Shown: positions 16,558 through 25,034, numbered from the stretch's first letter. The stretch: 42,330 bases of DNA from Chloroflexota bacterium (GCA_027623795.1 JAQBUX010000004.1:1-42330), one strand, 5' to 3'. The notes: a model not told the origin generated them from the letters alone. A program made the numbers and translations.

Positions 16558-16745
16558 CGTCCCGATGTTTGCGGCACGCTATGGATCGACGATGTAGGGC
16601 TCGGGCCATACGGTGAATGAACTTCTGCCCATGGCGAAGAGGGCCGGCTCCCGGTCCGCGATCTGACCCCCACAATCTTCACGGCAAAGAGAGCGAGAGC
16701 CTGCGCTGGCGGTCTCACTGCGGAGAACGTATTCGGCTGGCCGGT

Positions 16746-16787
16746 GGTCTCAAAAGGCCCCGGCGATAGCCGGGGCCTTTTGAGACC
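16746..16787. terminator. Perfect 19-bp inverted repeat, bidirectional terminator
   Basis: GGTCTCAAAAGGCCCCGGC and its exact reverse complement flank GATA. The arms hold AAAA and TTTT next to a GGCCCCGGC core, so each strand reads a GC hairpin followed by a T-run. It lies 20 bp after the peroxiredoxin stop (minus strand) and 270 bp after the zinc-ribbon stop. The arm end TTTGAGACC occurs once more at 16796-16804. Confidence 0.75.
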
Positions 16788-16806
16788 AGTCTTGGTTTGA
16801 GACCGG

Positions 16807-17280
16807 TTAACCGATGGCTTTGACAGCCGCCTTGACGGCGTCGTAGTCAGGCTCGATGCCCGGGTTCTCGCCACGCCATGCGTACTGGATTGTGCCAGAG
16901 CCATCGACCACGTACACGGTCCGGTTCGCTGCTGTGTAGCCTGGCATACCGGCGAAATTTTCGATCGCAGTGTCGTAGGCGCGCGCCGTATCTGCCGTGT
17001 GATCGACGAGGATCGGGAAGTTCAGATTGTGCTTAATCTTGAACTCCTTCGCAACGAAGTAGTTATCGACGGCGATGCCGAGCACATCGGCGCCGGCGCC
17101 GTTGAGCTCACTTAGCGAGTCTCGGAACGCGCAGACCTCTGTATCGCACACCCCTGAGAAAGCAGCAGGGTAAAAGGCGAGGACCACGGTCTTGCCCGAA
17201 AAATCGCTGAGGCTGACGTCGCTGCGGTCACTGTCTTTGAGGGAGAAGGCCGGAGCCTTCGTCCCGATGCTGAGTGGCAT
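16807..17280 (-). CDS. Peroxiredoxin (AhpC/TSA family, with PrxQ-like C-x4-C)
   Basis: Thiol peroxidase reducing H2O2 and organic peroxides. From ATG 17280 the protein is 157 aa and begins G-T-K-A-P-A-F-S-L; an AGGAG lies 6 nt upstream, so the longer frame (to 17328) is rejected. The active site reads F-Y-P-A-A-F-S-G-V-C: the peroxidatic Cys is Cys45, and the usual Thr of P-x3-T-x2-C is Ser. Cys50 follows at C-x4-C, the spacing of the resolving Cys in BCP/PrxQ enzymes, while the sequence around resembles AhpE-type proteins. Y-V-V-D is the usual fourth strand. It lies just downstream of the dehydrogenase array, but with its own Shine-Dalgarno and a 94-bp gap. Confidence 0.92.
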   Translation of the reverse strand: MPLSIGTKAPAFSLKDSDRSDVSLSDFSGKTVVLAFYPAAFSGVCDTEVCAFRDSLSELNGAGADVLGIAVDNYFVAKEFKIKHNLNFPILVDHTADTARAYDTAIENFAGMPGYTAANRTVYVVDGSGTIQYAWRGENPGIEPDYDAVKAAVKAIG

Positions 17281-17374
17281 ATTGACTCCTGTGATTTGTC
17301 GCGTGCTTTGCGCGCTTATCCCATTCATACGTTTGGGACGGCGATTATGGCATGTTCATGGTCGGTCCTGTGGC

Positions 17375-18367
17375 CTAGCCGCCGCCGTTCACGGCCATGA
17401 CGGCCTTGATGATGCCGTCCTGCTGCTTGGAGTACATCTCATAGGCCTCGGGGACCTGCTCGAACGTCATTCGGTGCGTGATCAACTTTGCCGGATCCAC
17501 CCATCCGCGATCCATCAACGAGACGAGTTCCTTGATGTCGGCGGTCGGGTCTCCCGAGCCGCGCGACGAGCAGGGGATAATCGTCGCGATCTTCCGCATC
17601 CAATCCATGTGTTTGAACGGGATCACCGACCCCATGCTAATCAGGCTGAAACCCATTACCTTGCCGTATGTGTTGACGAACGAGACGGCCTGGTTGAGGC
17701 CCTCAGGGTCCCCAGATGCATCCACGACAACGTCCAGTCCGTGGCCGTCGGTGATCTCCGGGATGGCCTCAAGCGGGTTGACGTGGTCAGGATTGATCGT
17801 GTCCGTCGCGCCCAACTCCTTCGCCTTGTCGAGCCTGTAGTCAAGCAGATCCATCGCGACCACCTGAGCTGCGCCCTCAAGCGCCGCCAGGTTTGTGAAA
17901 GACAGGCCGATCGCGCCCTGTCCGATCACCCCGATCCGGAGCCCCGCGGTCGGTCCCCAGAGCTTTGTTGCGAACAGTACTGTGCCCATCGGCTGGCACA
18001 TCAACCACTCGTCGAGGGGACGGTCCTCAGGAAGCGGGATCGTGAGCGCCTTGGGAACGTTGATGTACTCAACCAGGCCGCCGAGGCTGTCTGGCTTTAC
18101 GAAGTCCGGTAGGACAATCATGCGCTGACCAACCTCGACGCCGTCCGCACGTGACTCCACGACGGTTCCGGCGATCTCGTGGCAAGGGGCGCCGGCGCGT
18201 CCGGGATACATCTCCTCCGGCAACACCGGGTCGTAGAACATGTGCGTGTCGCTGCCACAGACTGACACCTGTTGGACCTTGAGAAGGATCTCGCCTTCCG
18301 CCGGTTTCGGCGTGTCGATGTCGTAGAACTCGAAGGTCCGCGGGGCGGACATCCTTGCTGCTTTCAT
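17375..18367 (-). CDS. Zinc-binding MDR dehydrogenase, array copy 1 (last in transcription order)
   Basis: Medium-chain alcohol/polyol dehydrogenase fold, 330 aa. GroES-like N-domain: V-C-G-S-D-T-H, P-C-H-E-I-A-G and W-L-M-C-Q-P-M-G-T supply the likely catalytic zinc ligands. The cofactor domain has G-Q-G-A-I-G-L-S and an Asp (A-M-D-L-L-D-Y) that favours NAD(H). The four-cysteine structural zinc lobe is missing. D-W-M-R-K and P-E-A-Y-E-M-Y are family marks shared by all six. This copy diverges in the loop after V-G-Q-R (P-D-F-V-K-P-D-S-L-G-G) and has M-F-Y-D-P after the first ligand motif. It is separated from copy 2 by 74 bp. Substrate unknown. Confidence 0.92.
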   Translation of the reverse strand: MKAARMSAPRTFEFYDIDTPKPAEGEILLKVQQVSVCGSDTHMFYDPVLPEEMYPGRAGAPCHEIAGTVVESRADGVEVGQRMIVLPDFVKPDSLGGLVEYINVPKALTIPLPEDRPLDEWLMCQPMGTVLFATKLWGPTAGLRIGVIGQGAIGLSFTNLAALEGAAQVVAMDLLDYRLDKAKELGATDTINPDHVNPLEAIPEITDGHGLDVVVDASGDPEGLNQAVSFVNTYGKVMGFSLISMGSVIPFKHMDWMRKIATIIPCSSRGSGDPTADIKELVSLMDRGWVDPAKLITHRMTFEQVPEAYEMYSKQQDGIIKAVMAVNGGG

Positions 18368-18441
18368 CGGTCGAAGGCCCTCATTTCGTGGTCGGTTGAG
18401 TTGAAGATAGATGGCCTGTGAGTTGCGGGCGTTGTGGCCGC

Positions 18442-19428
18442 CTACTTCACGGAGATCACGGTTTTGATGATCCCATCAGCCCGATTTGCGTACATCTCGT
18501 AAGCGTCGGGAATCTGGTCCCAGTTGTGGCGGTGGGTGGTCAATCGCGCCGGGTCCATCCAGCCGCGGTCACGCAGGCGCACCATGTCGGCGATACACGA
18601 GGTTGCGTCGGCCGAGCCCGCTGATCCTGTCGGGATGACCCGGATCTCTTTCCGCATCCATTCCTGGTGCCGGAACACCGTCGTCTGGGTGCCAGACTCA
18701 ACCAGGCTGAAGCCGATCACGAGGCCGCGCGGGTTGACAAGGTTTATCGCCTGGTTAATGCCGTCCGGGTCGCCAGAGGCGTCGACAACAACGTCCACCC
18801 CTGCGCCTCCCGTAGCCTCGGCCAGCGCCTCGACGACGTTTTCCTTGTCAGCGTTTATCGTGGCCGTCGCGCCGAACTCGGCGGACTTCGCCAGCCGGTA
18901 GTCCTCAAGATCGATGGCGACGACCTCACGCGCGCCCTGGTTGGCGGCGATCATCGTGAACGATAGGCCGATAGCGCCCTGTCCGAGGACGGCGATGCGC
19001 TTGTCGTCCGTCGTCCCCCAATGTCTCGCGGAGTAGAGGACCGTGCCGGACGGCTGGCACATCAGCCATTCGTCAGTGCCGCCGTAATCCGGGAGCGGAA
19101 TTACACGGCTGGTGGAGATGTACTCCGCCAGTCCGCCGGAAGATATCTCGCCGCCTGGTCCGCGATCGGTGAGTACGATGGCGCGCTGGCCGACTGCGTA
19201 GGCCGGGTTCCTGGACTCTACGATGGTGCCGGCGATCTCATGGCACGGCATTCCCGGCGTAAACGGGTACTCCTCTTCAGCGAAGACCGGCTCGTACCGC
19301 AGGTGGGTGTCGCTGCCGCAGATCGAGACGTGCTCGATCTTAAGGAGCACCTGCCCGTCGTTCACGGTCGGGTCAGGGGCGTCGGCAGCCTCGAGCTTGC
19401 GCGGGCCGGTGAGCTGAAAGGTCTTCAT
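18442..19428 (-). CDS. Zinc-binding MDR dehydrogenase, array copy 2
   Basis: A 328-aa paralog. Likely zinc ligands are Cys37 (C-G-S-D-T-H), His63/Glu64 (P-C-H-E) and Cys124 (L-M-C-Q-P). The Rossmann loop is G-Q-G-A-I-G-L-S-F-T, with A-I-D-L-E-D-Y-R at the cofactor-specificity strand (NAD type). H-Q-E-W-M-R-K is present. After V-G-Q-R-A-I-V-L it has T-D-R-G-P-G-G-E-I-S-S-G-G, a variable loop that differs in each copy and replaces the structural-zinc lobe. A Shine-Dalgarno-like AGAAGGGA lies about 10 nt before ATG 19428. It is most like copies 3, 4 and 5 by eye. Confidence 0.93.
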   Translation of the reverse strand: MKTFQLTGPRKLEAADAPDPTVNDGQVLLKIEHVSICGSDTHLRYEPVFAEEEYPFTPGMPCHEIAGTIVESRNPAYAVGQRAIVLTDRGPGGEISSGGLAEYISTSRVIPLPDYGGTDEWLMCQPSGTVLYSARHWGTTDDKRIAVLGQGAIGLSFTMIAANQGAREVVAIDLEDYRLAKSAEFGATATINADKENVVEALAEATGGAGVDVVVDASGDPDGINQAINLVNPRGLVIGFSLVESGTQTTVFRHQEWMRKEIRVIPTGSAGSADATSCIADMVRLRDRGWMDPARLTTHRHNWDQIPDAYEMYANRADGIIKTVISVK

Positions 19429-19510
19429 TGGTATCGGTTCCCTTCTAAAATGAGTGCCGGTTCTGGTAATGCCATGATGACAACGCCGCCTGCCGGGCGG
19501 GCGTGCTTTG

Positions 19511-20494
19511 TTACTCGATCGCTATCGCCACCTTGATCACCCCATCCTTACGATCTGCGTACATCTCGTAGGCGTCCGGGATCTGGTCCCATCCAACGCG
19601 GTGGGTGATCAGCTCCGCCGGGTCCCACCAACCGCGGTCCCGAAGTCCGACCATGTCGCGGATCGGCGCGATCGGGTCCAGAGCGCCAGCGGCGTTGGTC
19701 GGCAGGATTCGCACCTCTTTCCGCATCCACTCCTGGTGTCTGAACACGGTCGGCTCCAGGCCGGTGACGAGGCTGAATCCGACGATTGTCCCGCGGTTCC
19801 GCACGAGTTGAAGCGCTGCGTTGATGCCATCAGGGTCGCCCGAGGCCTCAACGACGCAGTCAACACCCTCGCCGTTCGTCGCCTCCATCACCGCCTCAAG
19901 GACGTTGTCCCGGTCTGCGTTGATCGTTACCTCGGCGCCAAGCTCGGAGGCTTTGTTGAGGCGGTAGTCCAGGAGGTCGATAGCGATCACTTTTTTTGCG
20001 CCCATGCGGTAGGCGATGGCGGTTGTCGAAAGGCCGATAGCGCCCTGTCCGATGATCGCGAAGGTCTTGTCGTTGGAGATCCCCCACTCGCGGCTGGCCT
20101 GAAGCGCCGTGCCCGCCGGCTGGCACATTACCCAGTCAGAGGTGCTTCCGTAGTCAGGGAGGGGAATGATCTTGTCGCCCGCGATGTACTCGGCCAGCCC
20201 GCCGGAGGTCATGCCGGCGGACGGGGTGAAGCTCGGCAGAATGATGGCCCTCTGGCCAACCGGATGGTCCGGATTTCTACTTTCGACGATGGTGCCGGCG
20301 ATCTCGTGGCAGGGCAGGCCGGGGGCGAGAGGGTAGCTCTCCTCCGGGTTGATTGGCTCGTAGTTTAGGTGGGTGTCGCTGCCGCAGATCGAGACGTGCT
20401 CGATCTTGAGCAGGATCTGGCCGTCTGCTGGCTCCGGGTCCGGGGCCTCCATCGCTTCAAGGCGCCGCGGGCCGGTAAGTTGATACGCCTTCAT
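19511..20494 (-). CDS. Zinc-binding MDR dehydrogenase, array copy 3
   Basis: A 327-aa paralog beginning M-K-A-Y-Q-L-T-G-P-R-R-L-E, nearly the same as copy 4. It keeps C-G-S-D-T-H, P-C-H-E-I-A-G, V-M-C-Q-P-A-G-T, G-Q-G-A-I-G-L-S and H-Q-E-W-M-R-K. It differs in the cofactor-domain helix (T-T-A-I-A-Y-R-M-G-A-K-K) and in A-L-Q-A-S-R-E-W where the others have V-L-Y-S-A-R-x-W, so the pocket near the active site may be altered. V-E-A-S-G-D-P replaces V-D-A-S-G-D-P. The 123-bp gap to copy 4 is the largest in the array and could hold an internal promoter, though none is clear. Confidence 0.93.
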   Translation of the reverse strand: MKAYQLTGPRRLEAMEAPDPEPADGQILLKIEHVSICGSDTHLNYEPINPEESYPLAPGLPCHEIAGTIVESRNPDHPVGQRAIILPSFTPSAGMTSGGLAEYIAGDKIIPLPDYGSTSDWVMCQPAGTALQASREWGISNDKTFAIIGQGAIGLSTTAIAYRMGAKKVIAIDLLDYRLNKASELGAEVTINADRDNVLEAVMEATNGEGVDCVVEASGDPDGINAALQLVRNRGTIVGFSLVTGLEPTVFRHQEWMRKEVRILPTNAAGALDPIAPIRDMVGLRDRGWWDPAELITHRVGWDQIPDAYEMYADRKDGVIKVAIAIE

Positions 20495-20617
20495 GAGCCG
20501 TCTTTCGGACTAGCCGTATTGGATATGTTCATAACAGTCCGGGCTGTGAAGCCATCGAAATCGGCGTGCAGCCCCTTCAACGTCGGCAATTCAGGAACCG
20601 CGTTCGCCGCCGGATAT

Positions 20618-21610
20618 CTATTCCGCATTGATCTCCATCACCACTTTGATGACGTTGTCACGGCGGTGTGAATACATCTCGTAGGCGTCAGGAATGCCGT
20701 CCCAGTTGACGCGATGGGTCGTCAACACAGCCGGATCGAACCAGCCGCGGTCACGAAGCGCCACCATGTCGCGGATCGCTTCGGTCGGGTTTTCGGACCC
20801 GCCGGAGCTGGTGGGAATTACTTTGACCTCTTTGCGCATCCACTCGATGTGGCGGAACACAACCTGCTCCTCCGCCGGGATGAGCGAGAAGCCGACAACC
20901 ATACCCTGATGGTTGACCGCCTGAACCGCCTGGTTGAGCCCATCCGGGTCCGCCGAGGCGTCGACCACGACATCTACACCCGCGCCGCCGGTGGCTTCTT
21001 CCAGCGCCTCGATCAGATTGTCGGTGTCCGGGTTGATAGTGTCGGTTGCGCCGACCTCGGTGGCCTTGTCCAGCCGGTAGTCCAGCAGATCAACTGCGAT
21101 CACCTGTCGCGCGCCCTGCCGGGCGGCGATTGCGGTGAAGGAAAGTCCGATGGCGCCCTGTCCAAGGATCGCTATCCGCTTGTCGTCCGTGGTACCCCAA
21201 CGCCGGGACGAGTAGAGCGCGGTTCCGGCGGGTTGACACATCACCCAGTCCGCCGTGCTGCCGTAGTCCGGCAGGGGAATGACTTTGCTGCTCGTGATGT
21301 AGTCCGCAAGACCGCCGCCACGATGCCCACCGGCGTCAACCGCCGTCTCGGGTAAAACGATGGCCCGCGTGCCGACCTTGTACTTAGAGTTGCGCGACTC
21401 CACGATGGTGCCGGCGATCTCGTGGCATGGCGAGCCATAGAACATCGGGTAGCGTTCTTCAGGGAGCGCCGGCTCGTAGTTCAGGTGGACATCGCTGCCA
21501 CAGATAGAACTGTGCTGGACCTTGAGGACAACCTCGCCGTCCTCAGGAGTCGGGTCGTCCCCCTGAACCAGTTCGAGCCGCCTCGGCCCGGTCAACTGGT
21601 AGGCCTTCAT
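20618..21610 (-). CDS. Zinc-binding MDR dehydrogenase, array copy 4
   Basis: A 330-aa paralog from ATG 21610 (M-K-A-Y-Q-L-T-G-P-R-R-L-E). The longer frame to 21691 adds 27 residues overlapping copy 5 and is rejected. Ligand motifs are S-I-C-G-S-D-V-H, P-C-H-E-I-A-G and V-M-C-Q-P-A-G-T; this copy has Val, not Thr, before the His of C-G-S-D-x-H. D-A-S-A-D-P replaces D-A-S-G-D-P. I-E-W-M-R-K is kept. The variable loop reads P-E-T-A-V-D-A-G-G-H-R-G-G-G. Only 19 bp separate it from copy 5, so the two are surely cotranscribed. Confidence 0.93.
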   Translation of the reverse strand: MKAYQLTGPRRLELVQGDDPTPEDGEVVLKVQHSSICGSDVHLNYEPALPEERYPMFYGSPCHEIAGTIVESRNSKYKVGTRAIVLPETAVDAGGHRGGGLADYITSSKVIPLPDYGSTADWVMCQPAGTALYSSRRWGTTDDKRIAILGQGAIGLSFTAIAARQGARQVIAVDLLDYRLDKATEVGATDTINPDTDNLIEALEEATGGAGVDVVVDASADPDGLNQAVQAVNHQGMVVGFSLIPAEEQVVFRHIEWMRKEVKVIPTSSGGSENPTEAIRDMVALRDRGWFDPAVLTTHRVNWDGIPDAYEMYSHRRDNVIKVVMEINAE

Positions 21611-21629
21611 TCCCGGGTCTCCGATCGGG

Positions 21630-22616
21630 TTAGGGGTTGATCTCCATGACCACCTTGATGACGCCGTCTGTTCGGTTGGAGTACATCTCATAGGCTGCCG
21701 GGATATCGTTCCAGCCCACGCGGTGTGTGATCAGTTTTGCCGGGTCCGCCCACCCGCGCTCTCGCAGATGGACCATCGTCTGAATGGCTTCTGTCGGGGT
21801 TGGGGAGGCGCCTGATACCGTCGGCGCCAGGCGAGCCGCCTTGCGCATCCACGCCTGGTGATTGAAGACGACGGGTTCCGTGGCCGAGATCAGGCTGAAT
21901 CCGACTATGAGTCCGAACCGGTTTACCAGACTGACCGCCTGATTCAGACCCTCGGGGTCGCCAGACGCGTCCGCGACAACGTCCACGCCCTCTCCGCCGG
22001 TTAGCTCCTGGATGGCTTCTGCGACGTTTTCTTTGTCGGCGTTGACCGTGTCGGTCGCGCCCAGCTCTCGCGCCTTGTCGAGGCGGTAGTCCTCGAGGTC
22101 GATCGCGATCACCTGTCGTGCGCCCTGCGCCGCGGCGATCATCGTGAACGACAGTCCGATCGCGCCCTGACCGAGCACGGCGATGCGCTTGTCAGAGGCG
22201 TTGCCCCATTGCCGGGCGGAGTAAAGGACCGTACCGGTCGGCTGGCACATCACCCACTCGTCCAACCCTCCGTGGTCGGGGAGGGCGATGATCCGGCTAC
22301 TTGCGATGTACTCAGCAAGGCCACCGCCGGAAGGGCCCGTTTCCGGGTTGTAGTCCGGCAGGACGATGGCGCGCTGGCCCACCTTGTAATCCGGGTTGCG
22401 CGATTCGACGATCGTGCCCGCAATCTCGTGGCATGGCGCTCCCGGCACCGAGGGGTACCGCTCCTCGGGAAGGACCGGGTCGTAGGACAGGTGGGTGTCA
22501 CTGCCGCAAACCGAAGTCTGCTCGATCTTGAGCAGAACCTGTCCGTCCATCGGAACCGGGTCCGGCGCCTCGACGAATTCGAGTTTGCGGGGGCCGACGA
22601 GTTGTACCGCTTTCAT
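21630..22616 (-). CDS. Zinc-binding MDR dehydrogenase, array copy 5
   Basis: A 328-aa paralog (M-K-A-V-Q-L-V-G-P-R-K-L-E-F-V). It keeps S-V-C-G-S-D-T-H, P-C-H-E-I-A-G, V-M-C-Q-P-T-G-T, G-Q-G-A-I-G-L-S-F-T and H-Q-A-W-M-R-K. The specificity strand reads A-I-D-L-E-D-Y-R as in copy 2. V-A-D-A-S-G-D-P replaces V-V-D-A-S-G-D-P. The variable loop reads P-D-Y-N-P-E-T-G-P-S-G-G-G. It lies 78 bp downstream of copy 6. Substrate unknown; the residues lining the loop differ from the other copies, as expected if each copy has its own substrate. Confidence 0.93.
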   Translation of the reverse strand: MKAVQLVGPRKLEFVEAPDPVPMDGQVLLKIEQTSVCGSDTHLSYDPVLPEERYPSVPGAPCHEIAGTIVESRNPDYKVGQRAIVLPDYNPETGPSGGGLAEYIASSRIIALPDHGGLDEWVMCQPTGTVLYSARQWGNASDKRIAVLGQGAIGLSFTMIAAAQGARQVIAIDLEDYRLDKARELGATDTVNADKENVAEAIQELTGGEGVDVVADASGDPEGLNQAVSLVNRFGLIVGFSLISATEPVVFNHQAWMRKAARLAPTVSGASPTPTEAIQTMVHLRERGWADPAKLITHRVGWNDIPAAYEMYSNRTDGVIKVVMEINP

Positions 22617-22694
22617 GGGGTTGTCTTTATCCCTTCGTGACTCTCGGTTTGCGCATCTCAGAGATCGACGCGCCGCTAAATGCCGGGTCGGGTA

Positions 22695-23669
22695 CTAGTC
22701 CTGTTGCATCACAACCTTGATAACCCCGTCGCTTTGGTCGGAGTACATGTCGTATGCGGTCTGGATGTCCGACACGTCGAAACCCACACGGTGCGACACA
22801 AGTTTCCCGGGGTCGACGTAGCCGGTCTCCTTCATGCGGATCATCTGGCGGATGGTGTCGGTCGGCCGGTCCGTGCCGGCGACTTGAGTCGGGATGATCG
22901 TTGCCGACTTGCGCATCCATGCGGAGTGGTTGAACTGGGTAGAGCGGCCGCCAAGGAGGCTGAAGTTGATGATCGTGCCGTGCCGCCTAACGATAGAGAC
23001 GACGGAGTCCAATCCCTCTGCGGCTCCACTTGCGTCGATGGCAAAGTCCAGTCCCTGTCCGTCCGTTAGCTCCTCGACGGCCTCGACCAGATTTACATCG
23101 TCCGGGTTGATCGTGTCCGTGGCGCCCATCTCCAGCGACTTCTTGCGTCGCGCTTCTACAAGATCGATTCCGATCACCCGCTCCGCGCCCTGGGCAGCCG
23201 CAAGCATCGTGAACGACAGGCCAATTCCGCCCTGGCCGAACACGCCGATCGTTTTACCGGCGGGGTTTCCCCAGTGCGTAGCGGAGTAGAGGACCGTTCC
23301 GGAGTGCTGGCACATGACCCACTCCTCGATCGGGCCCCAGTCCGGCACGGGCATGACCATGTCAGGAGTCTGGACGACGTACTCCTGAAGCCCGCCCGCC
23401 GTGCGACCGGCGAGCACGACGACACGCTGACCGACGTTGATCTCATCCGTTTTGCTGTCCACAACCACGCCCGCGATTTCATGGCATGGACGACCGGGCG
23501 CCTGAGGGTAGTCCTCTTCCGTTAGCTGGCCGTGATAGATCCCGTGAATGTCACTGCCGCAGACAGAAGATGCCTGGACCTTGATGAGAACCTCGCCCTC
23601 ACCCGCGGTCGGCGTTTCGATATCGACCATCTCGAATGTCTGCGGGGAAGTAAGTCGTGCGGCCTTCAT
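22695..23669 (-). CDS. Zinc-binding MDR dehydrogenase, array copy 6 (first in transcription order)
   Basis: The most divergent and shortest copy, 324 aa. It reads S-V-C-G-S-D-I-H, P-C-H-E-I-A-G, V-M-C-Q-H-S-G-T (His where the others have Pro), G-Q-G-G-I-G-L-S-F-T (Gly for Ala) and S-A-W-M-R-K. The loop after V-G-Q-R is the shortest (L-A-G-R-T-A-G-G). D-A-S-G-A-A-E-G replaces D-A-S-G-D-P-x-G. GGAG sits 6 nt before ATG 23669, the best Shine-Dalgarno of the six, consistent with the leading gene of the operon. Divergent from the ketopantoate-reductase-like gene across a 294-bp gap. Confidence 0.92.
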   Translation of the reverse strand: MKAARLTSPQTFEMVDIETPTAGEGEVLIKVQASSVCGSDIHGIYHGQLTEEDYPQAPGRPCHEIAGVVVDSKTDEINVGQRVVVLAGRTAGGLQEYVVQTPDMVMPVPDWGPIEEWVMCQHSGTVLYSATHWGNPAGKTIGVFGQGGIGLSFTMLAAAQGAERVIGIDLVEARRKKSLEMGATDTINPDDVNLVEAVEELTDGQGLDFAIDASGAAEGLDSVVSIVRRHGTIINFSLLGGRSTQFNHSAWMRKSATIIPTQVAGTDRPTDTIRQMIRMKETGYVDPGKLVSHRVGFDVSDIQTAYDMYSDQSDGVIKVVMQQD

Positions 23670-23963
23670 CGCTTCTCCATATTCAGTGGCGTGTATGAGA
23701 GTGTTTTCGTACGCAGCCCGTGTACGGACCGTGCGGGATGATACACCCCCGCGCGTCGTCCGCGCGCCTCACCCGGTCCCAGTCATAACGCGGGAACATC
23801 CGGCGCTCATTGGGGAGGTTCATAGGGGTCCAGAAATCGTCCGCATGTATACTCGGGATCCGGTCTCAGAACGCGCCGCGAGGGCTCTCTCACGCGGCTC
23901 CACTTTCGCCGATGAATGCACCTGATTTCATTTTGGTCTTGATTTTCCCAAAGGGGGGCTCGT
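23670..23963. promoter_or_regulatory. Divergent promoter region between the MDR array and the KPR operon
   Basis: No gene is seen. On the plus strand TATACT (23848-23853) is a good -10 box, about 110 bp before the TTG start at 23964, without a clear -35. On the minus strand TATCAT (23743-23738) lies about 70 bp before array copy 6. The 12-mer CGGGATGATACA around it is also found at 6443-6454, upstream of the minus-strand PEP-utilizing gene. Confidence 0.4.
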
Positions 23964-25034
23964 TTGGTTGCGCCGAGAAAAAAAATAGGATTCATCGGCT
24001 CCGGTGCAATCGCTTGCTACCTCGGGGCGTTCCTGGCGCAAGACGGCCATGACGTGACGTTGATCGACGGCTGGTTCGAGCAGATCGACAAGATCAAGGC
24101 GGACGGCATCTCGGCGAAGGGTCCGCACGCTCCGTTCACGCAGAAGGTCAGGGCGCTACACATCCACGAGGCCCAGTCGCTTGAGCCGGGCGACGAGTTC
24201 GACATCGGTTTCGTGGCGATGAAGGCCTACGACACAAAGTGGGCCGGGGCGTTTATCGACCGTTTCGTCAAGCCCGATGGTTATGTGGTCGCCTCGCAGA
24301 ACTGCTGGACGGACGCGGCTCTGGCGGAAACAGTGGGAGACGGTCGCGCTGTTGGGCTGATCATGTCCGGCATTACGGTCGCCGTCTGGGAACCGGGGAA
24401 GGTCGAGCGGGGCGCTGAGAAAACCGGCCGCGAGCAGGGACATGACGTGTTCCGCGCTGGCGAGCACGACGGCTCGATAACTCCGAGGACGGAGGAGCTC
24501 GCTGAGATACTCTCGGTGGTCGACGGGTCGTTCGCCACGGCGAACCTGTTTGGCGAGCGCTGGACAAAGCTCTGCCAGAACGCCTCCGGCAATCCGGTAC
24601 AGGCGATGACGTTACAGGGCGGGGTCGAGGTTGTCTCGACGCCACGTGGCCGGCAGTTGACGATCATGCTTTTGAACGAGTGCGCCAGGGTGGGATTGGC
24701 CGCGGGGTTTCAACTCGCGAACATTCGGGGCGTCTCCGCGGAGAAGTGGGCCAGCGCAGATCAGGGCGACGTCTACGAAGAGCTGGATGGCATGCTCACG
24801 CCGACCGGTTCCGGGGGAATCAACTGGAAATCGTCGATGGCACAGGACATCACCAAAGGTCGTCGCTCTGAGGTCGAGTTCATGAACGGGTTCGTCGCCG
24901 AAACGGGCGACAAAGCGGGCGTAGACACCCCGGTAACCGACGCGATCATCGAGGTGATGCGCGCTATCGACGACAAGCGTCTCGATCCCTCGCCGGACAA
25001 CATCGAACTCACTCTGCGAAAGGCGGGGCTGTAG
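23964..25034 (+). CDS. Ketopantoate reductase-like NAD(P)-dependent oxidoreductase
   Basis: A 356-aa protein of the ApbA/PanE fold. The N-terminal Rossmann loop is K-I-G-F-I-G-S-G-A-I-A-C-Y-L-G, with L-I-D-G at the specificity strand (Asp, so NAD may be preferred over the NADP of true PanE). V-A-M-K-A-Y-D-T matches the family V-x-x-K-x-x-x-T (Lys of the active site), and Q-N-C-W is in the place of Q-N-G. The C-terminal domain has K-L-C-Q-N-A-S-G-N-P (family K-x-x-x-N) and the end block E-F-M-N-G-F-V. It is longer than PanE (about 300 aa), so a relative with another 2-oxoacid substrate is likely. TTG 23964 follows a G-rich Shine-Dalgarno (23953-23958). First gene of a four-gene operon. Confidence 0.87.
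   Translation: MVAPRKKIGFIGSGAIACYLGAFLAQDGHDVTLIDGWFEQIDKIKADGISAKGPHAPFTQKVRALHIHEAQSLEPGDEFDIGFVAMKAYDTKWAGAFIDRFVKPDGYVVASQNCWTDAALAETVGDGRAVGLIMSGITVAVWEPGKVERGAEKTGREQGHDVFRAGEHDGSITPRTEELAEILSVVDGSFATANLFGERWTKLCQNASGNPVQAMTLQGGVEVVSTPRGRQLTIMLLNECARVGLAAGFQLANIRGVSAEKWASADQGDVYEELDGMLTPTGSGGINWKSSMAQDITKGRRSEVEFMNGFVAETGDKAGVDTPVTDAIIEVMRAIDDKRLDPSPDNIELTLRKAGL

Follow-up and report, generated by a model that had tools for sequence, protein, structure and literature searches.

The window analysed here is the whole 42,330-nucleotide stretch JAQBUX010000004.1:1-42330 of a Chloroflexota bacterium (GCA_027623795.1). It carries six tandem genes, A to F, for zinc-dependent medium-chain dehydrogenases (MDR). 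They belong to an array that, judged from gene order and a gene tree, is a genus-specific tandem expansion that added genes B, C, X, D, E and F to an older paralog, A; gene X is found in sister genomes. We hold with moderate confidence that this expansion provides sugar or sugar-acid dehydrogenases of diverged specificity that feed non-phosphorylative pathways. Table 1 gives the positions of the features discussed.

Table 1. The MDR array, its neighbours and related features in other genomes (positions are those of the window unless a locus is named).
Feature	Position	Strand	Remark
MDR gene A	22695..23669	-	324 aa; first gene of the array; paralog of older origin, orthologous to single genes of sister genera
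MDR gene B	21630..22616	-	328 aa
MDR gene C	20618..21610	-	330 aa counted from the MKAYQL start
MDR gene D	19511..20494	-	327 aa
MDR gene E	18442..19428	-	328 aa
MDR gene F	17375..18367	-	330 aa; last gene of the array; adjoins the peroxiredoxin gene
Gap C/D, site of gene X in six sister genomes	20495..20617	-	123 bp
Peroxiredoxin (AhpC-TSA) gene	16807..17328	-	same strand as the array, 46 bp past F
Hairpin beyond the peroxiredoxin gene	16745..16788	.	20-bp stem, GC-rich
Divergent intergenic region, presumed site of the array promoter	23670..23963	.	
Ketopantoate-reductase-like (ApbA/PanE fold) gene	23964..25034	+	divergent neighbour, conserved
Methyltransferase-like gene between E and F	L058:4388-5188; L032:16355-16798		opposite strand
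Divergent galactonate-dehydratase-like enolase-superfamily pair	L151:6210-8806; L154:7112-9739; L153:15773-18443; L162:602-3180		near single or paired MDR genes

An earlier, sequence-only reading of this DNA had described six co-directional minus-strand genes of 324–330 aa between positions 17375 and 23669, and open reading frames were found exactly there. The gaps, given then as 19–123 bp, measure 78, 19, 123, 82 and 74 bp in order from A to F, an identical range. In the case of C the mechanical open reading frame is longer (357 aa) because an upstream ATG sits inside B, and we took the gene from its MKA start. Assignment of the six to one MDR subfamily agrees with the presence of the Pfam domains ADH_N and ADH_zinc_N in every one of them: all six passed the ADH_N cut-off in a search of the genome, and member A scored 82.9 bits (cut-off 31.8) and 58.2 bits (cut-off 23.5) for the two domains. 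The glucose dehydrogenase C-terminal domain PF16912 was matched by five of the six. Pairwise identity among A to F is 46–68%, and the motifs that had been listed as shared, CGSDxH, CHEIAG, MCQ, GQGxIGLS and WMRK, are indeed invariant in all six; the residue after the S of GLS is F or T, and WMRK is local to the array branch, its R being retained in 54 of 110 relatives. The nearest paralog in the same genome scored 167 bits, compared with more than 546 bits for the six. This paralog (G000:C193:1548-2516; L015) likewise carries Gln at the third position of the metal site and lacks the structural-zinc loop, and both features may extend to a wider, uncharacterised MDR group.

No convincing minus-strand terminator was found between the array genes, and no sigma-70-type promoter match was found in 23670..23963. 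The hairpin beyond the peroxiredoxin gene is a likely terminator of the unit and probably acts bidirectionally. The genes from A through the peroxiredoxin gene most likely form one transcription unit, which fits the close spacing of co-directional genes, the lack of a convincing terminator in the gaps and the position of the hairpin. In G026 and G032, two genomes of the genus, E and F are separated by a methyltransferase-like gene on the other strand, which is shortened in one of the two; F therefore does not always belong to the same unit as the rest of the array.

The window corresponds to contig C97 in a metagenome-assembled genome (MAG) of 2.95 Mb in 357 contigs, 83% complete, and orthologs of gene A at 83–85% occur in marine Chloroflexi/Dehalococcoidia MAGs. 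The genome belongs to the same family as Ca. Lucifugimonas marina (G040; complete chromosome CP046147, 3,094,136 bases), which makes it a member of SAR202 and of the family to which the cultured strains belong. Each of the eight genomes in the window's genus has the array, with five to seven members and the order A-B-C-X-D-E-F throughout, although two genomes have it split over two contigs. Four genomes have all seven genes; X is absent from the window's genome and from G029, C is absent from G027 and G030, and where X is present it overlaps D by 4 bp. Elsewhere the subfamily is sparse, with 0–2 copies in other genera of the family and at most two copies per genome outside the window's genus in our sample of the class. 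Ca. Lucifugimonas marina itself has two members that are not arranged in tandem, and none occurs in the eight genomes (G001–G008, several of them near complete) of g2 and g3, two further genera of the family, an absence that is a loss. Synteny in related genomes had been proposed as a check on the sequence-only reading, and seven other genomes, each assembled independently, show the array order. In a MAG as fragmented and incomplete as this one, an artefact of assembly or binning, with collapsed strains or false tandem copies, would be a natural suspicion; we consider its probability negligible, as copies only 46–68% identical are shared in the same order by those seven assemblies, and the syntenic arrays rule it out.

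In a gene tree built on 111 subfamily members, each of the seven positions was monophyletic (support 100/99 or 100/100), and the duplications are therefore older than the split of the genus. Genes B, C, X, D, E and F formed a single clade of 44 rows (support 99/92) with one nested outsider, while A grouped with single-copy genes of other genera. Forcing A into the B–F clade was rejected (p-AU 0.023, or 0.0003 without the nested outsider). The repeated local duplication proposed earlier thus holds for B–F and fails for A, and a single burst yielding all six genes is ruled out for A. The six did not prove to come from distant families, nor did each ortholog turn up in unrelated single-gene settings, the two outcomes named in advance as contradicting that proposal. 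A test of descent of B–F from the S-type gene, which adjoins the peroxiredoxin gene in sister genera, gave p-AU 0.073, which does not reject such an origin. The diversification of the copies is old and has been maintained, as each copy is a separate orthologous lineage and dN/dS is 0.01–0.16 in every lineage, indicating purifying selection; the tree of 111 members gave no sign of large-scale gene conversion. Gene X branches below C, D and E, and its absence from the window and from G029 is for that reason most simply explained as loss. No recognisable remnant of X was found in 20495-20617. We also considered loss of X or C through recombination into chimeric genes and rejected it, since no chimera was found among the neighbouring genes. 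The outsider nested in the array clade is a single MDR gene on a long branch from G356, a genome of another family of the class (L132/L170). It sits on a non-syntenic 8.4-kb contig and could be explained by horizontal transfer, by a genus absent from the sample or by a binning error.

Residues C37 and H63, at the positions of the catalytic zinc ligands, and G149/G151/G154 of the dinucleotide motif GxGxxG are invariant in 110 of 110 relatives, as are Glu64, Gln125 and Asp173. The loop after VGQR is short and free of cysteine in all six array proteins, and the four-cysteine structural-zinc loop is missing; that loop is found in many MDRs, not all, and its absence is permitted within the superfamily. 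The position of Gln125 is occupied by Glu, Asp or Cys in most MDRs. In our alignment it corresponds to Gln150 of the Sulfolobus glucose dehydrogenase (SsGDH), whose sequence, as used here, matched 2CD9 across its full length. Because a review lists the zinc ligands of SsGDH as Cys, His, Glu67 and water (PMC9795676), we treat Gln125 as an equivalent position and not as a proven ligand. Gene product B, modelled with AlphaFold from 25 sequences (pLDDT 87, pTM 0.88), has a normal MDR fold, and Asp173 lies at the end of the second Rossmann strand. An Asp at this place favours NAD over NADP, and the array enzymes are probably NAD-dependent. The best fold matches of the model are threonine, secondary-alcohol and polyol dehydrogenases. 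Neighbours by sequence and by fold comprise threonine and secondary-alcohol dehydrogenases no less than sugar enzymes; fold identifies an MDR and does not discriminate function further. Curated families were likewise of no help: all NCBIfam matches of this uncharacterised subfamily fell far below their cut-offs (for member A and TIGR00692, L-threonine 3-dehydrogenase, 101 bits against 458), and the families nearest to the array genes are of the COG1063 type.

Twenty reference positions are conserved within each lineage yet different between lineages, and these include 41, 89 and 267-268, which are equivalent or adjacent to positions that contact substrate in SsGDH, most of these contact positions being provisional assignments. 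Enrichment of lineage-specific residues around the active site is weak and varies with the distance allowed, with p 0.026 for ±2 residues and 0.33 for ±1. Since the enrichment is weak and the contact positions are mostly provisional, substrate diversification among the copies is plausible, and we put it no more firmly. The same weak enrichment, together with the invariance of the catalytic residues in every copy and the dispensability of C and of X in some genomes, would suit a dosage array in which all copies catalyse one reaction and are kept for enzyme amount or condition-dependent expression. Duplicates kept for dosage usually remain near-identical, however, and here the lineages are 46–68% identical and distinct throughout the genus, with no visible gene conversion; we regard this explanation as rather improbable. 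A still fainter prospect is that the copies are subunits of hetero-oligomers, mixed tetramers of which would broaden or tune activity. MDR enzymes are commonly tetramers (PMC9795676), and the genes are co-directional and closely spaced, with X and D overlapping, but every copy retains its catalytic residues and single members occur alone in other genera, and we think it very improbable that the array is to be explained in this way.

The preferred reading, a set of diverged sugar or sugar-acid dehydrogenases, draws mainly on the neighbourhood of the MDR gene in other genera. In sister genera the syntenic spot holds a single MDR gene (in one genus a tandem pair), flanked by helicase and ketopantoate-reductase-like genes on one side and by a peroxiredoxin gene and rsmA- and ispE-type genes on the other; in most sister genera the peroxiredoxin gene comes after the single MDR gene. 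Divergent enolase-superfamily genes lie beside or near the MDR gene at seven loci (L034, L151, L153, L154, L155, L161 and L162), with two such genes at five of them, one at L155, which is at a contig end, and one called at L161. The pair at L151 matches galactonate dehydratase best, with 253 and 247 bits, below the cut-off of 311. The pair is absent from the locus throughout the array genus, and its closest counterpart across the whole of the window's genome has 39% identity, as against 60–67% for the pair of G070. In another genus an A-type gene is clustered with a further enolase-superfamily gene, a DUF4432 gene, two aldo-keto reductase genes, a 2-hydroxyacid dehydrogenase gene and a Gfo/Idh/MocA protein gene. 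It is mainly because dehydratase-like genes adjoin the MDR gene in other genera that we propose a sugar or sugar-acid substrate, and these conserved neighbours lend support to the sugar option that the sequence-only reading had offered. A similar arrangement is known for the E. coli rspB / L-gulonate 5-dehydrogenase type of MDR (4ILK), a single gene whose product is a hit of the array both by sequence, at about 23% identity, and by fold. In rspA/rspB the MDR is encoded with a ManD-type enolase-superfamily dehydratase. The likeness to the sister-genus loci lies in an MDR gene adjoining a sugar-acid dehydratase gene, and the substrate is not transferable.

A likely course of events can be proposed on this basis. 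The ancestral locus would have held one or two dehydrogenase genes beside the divergent pair of sugar-acid-dehydratase-like genes. In the window's genus the pair would have left the locus, and tandem duplication of the dehydrogenase gene would have produced B, C, X, D, E and F next to A, after which every copy diverged and was retained. In each enzyme the Cys/His zinc site probably binds a hydroxyl group on a sugar, a sugar alcohol or an aldonic acid, and hydride passes to NAD+, with the copies taking different stereo- or chain variants. The products would then enter non-phosphorylative (dehydratase/aldolase) pathways served by the approximately 60 enolase-superfamily genes elsewhere in the genome. 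Of the characterised enzymes compared, SsGDH (PDB 2CD9), an aldose 1-dehydrogenase of a non-phosphorylative pathway, resembles the array proteins in its MDR fold and in the Cys, His, Glu and Gln positions of the metal site. It differs from them in having a cysteine-rich structural-zinc loop and Asn/Arg near the site of the NAD-type Asp; overall similarity is low, and no glucose dehydrogenase is among the 60 best PDB sequence matches or the 50 best fold matches.

The same type of array could instead act on substrates other than sugars, such as secondary alcohols, hydroxy-amino acids or the alcohol groups that degraded organic matter carries. The best sequence and fold matches are to 5VM2 (E. 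coli ECK1772), to threonine dehydrogenase (2DFV/2D8A) and to secondary-alcohol dehydrogenases (2DFV, 5VM2 and 1YKF: about 23–25% identity, TM 0.83–0.87). At the third-ligand position, enzymes of the 2DFV/5VM2/1YKF type have Glu or Asp, the Asp being that of the secondary-alcohol dehydrogenases, whereas the array has Gln, and the sugar-acid-dehydratase-like genes in the conserved neighbourhood of sister genera also argue against a non-sugar substrate. SAR202 enzymes have often been tied to recalcitrant organic matter (PMC5395668), and a role of the array in its use is speculation. On balance we find a non-sugar substrate unlikely.

Sugar and sugar-acid oxidation, the reading we prefer, fits what has been described for SAR202. 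The group is abundant in the ocean, and its enzyme expansions are believed to govern which dissolved organic compounds its members can use. Published paralog expansions in SAR202 include the COG4948 enolase superfamily, COG2141 FMNO and the COG1028 and COG1063 dehydrogenases, and the enolase-superfamily expansion marks groups I and II (PMC6946804, PMC10444878). One account counts COG1063 in a group of seven correlated paralog sets for which a role in non-phosphorylative sugar catabolism is proposed, and has COG1063 and COG4948 paralogs act jointly in sugar use as part of that proposal (PMC10444878). The claim of the sequence-only reading that the array is not part of a standard pathway was accordingly too strong, a non-phosphorylative pathway with COG1063 paralogs having been proposed for SAR202 group I in that text. 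The array resembles these expansions in its clade and in the multiplication of catabolic oxidoreductases; those accounts count families genome-wide, and the array differs in being tandem and confined to one genus. Paralog expansion in SAR202 is thus already published, and this array and its subfamily seem undescribed, as no earlier description of a SAR202 tandem MDR array or of the subfamily was found in the literature searched. More tentatively, and as something possible rather than probable, the SAR202 MDR subfamily with its Cys/His/Gln site and no structural zinc may be a battery of aldose/aldonate dehydrogenases tuned to stereoisomers, its partner dehydratases displaced, and so form the oxidoreductase counterpart of the enolase-superfamily expansion. 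The array makes a compact case study: relatives display the single-gene ancestral state, the partner genes and the sequence in which copies were duplicated and lost. Its seven proteins could be expressed side by side, which would test directly whether paralog expansion in SAR202 is substrate diversification.

The enolase superfamily is itself well represented in the window's genome, with 60 matches to its domain PF13378, and on several contigs (C121, C104 and C153 of G000) these genes also stand in tandem. One of them, C153:4933-6006, reads through an in-frame TGA, and similar interrupted copies occur in related genomes, which suggests turnover of those arrays.
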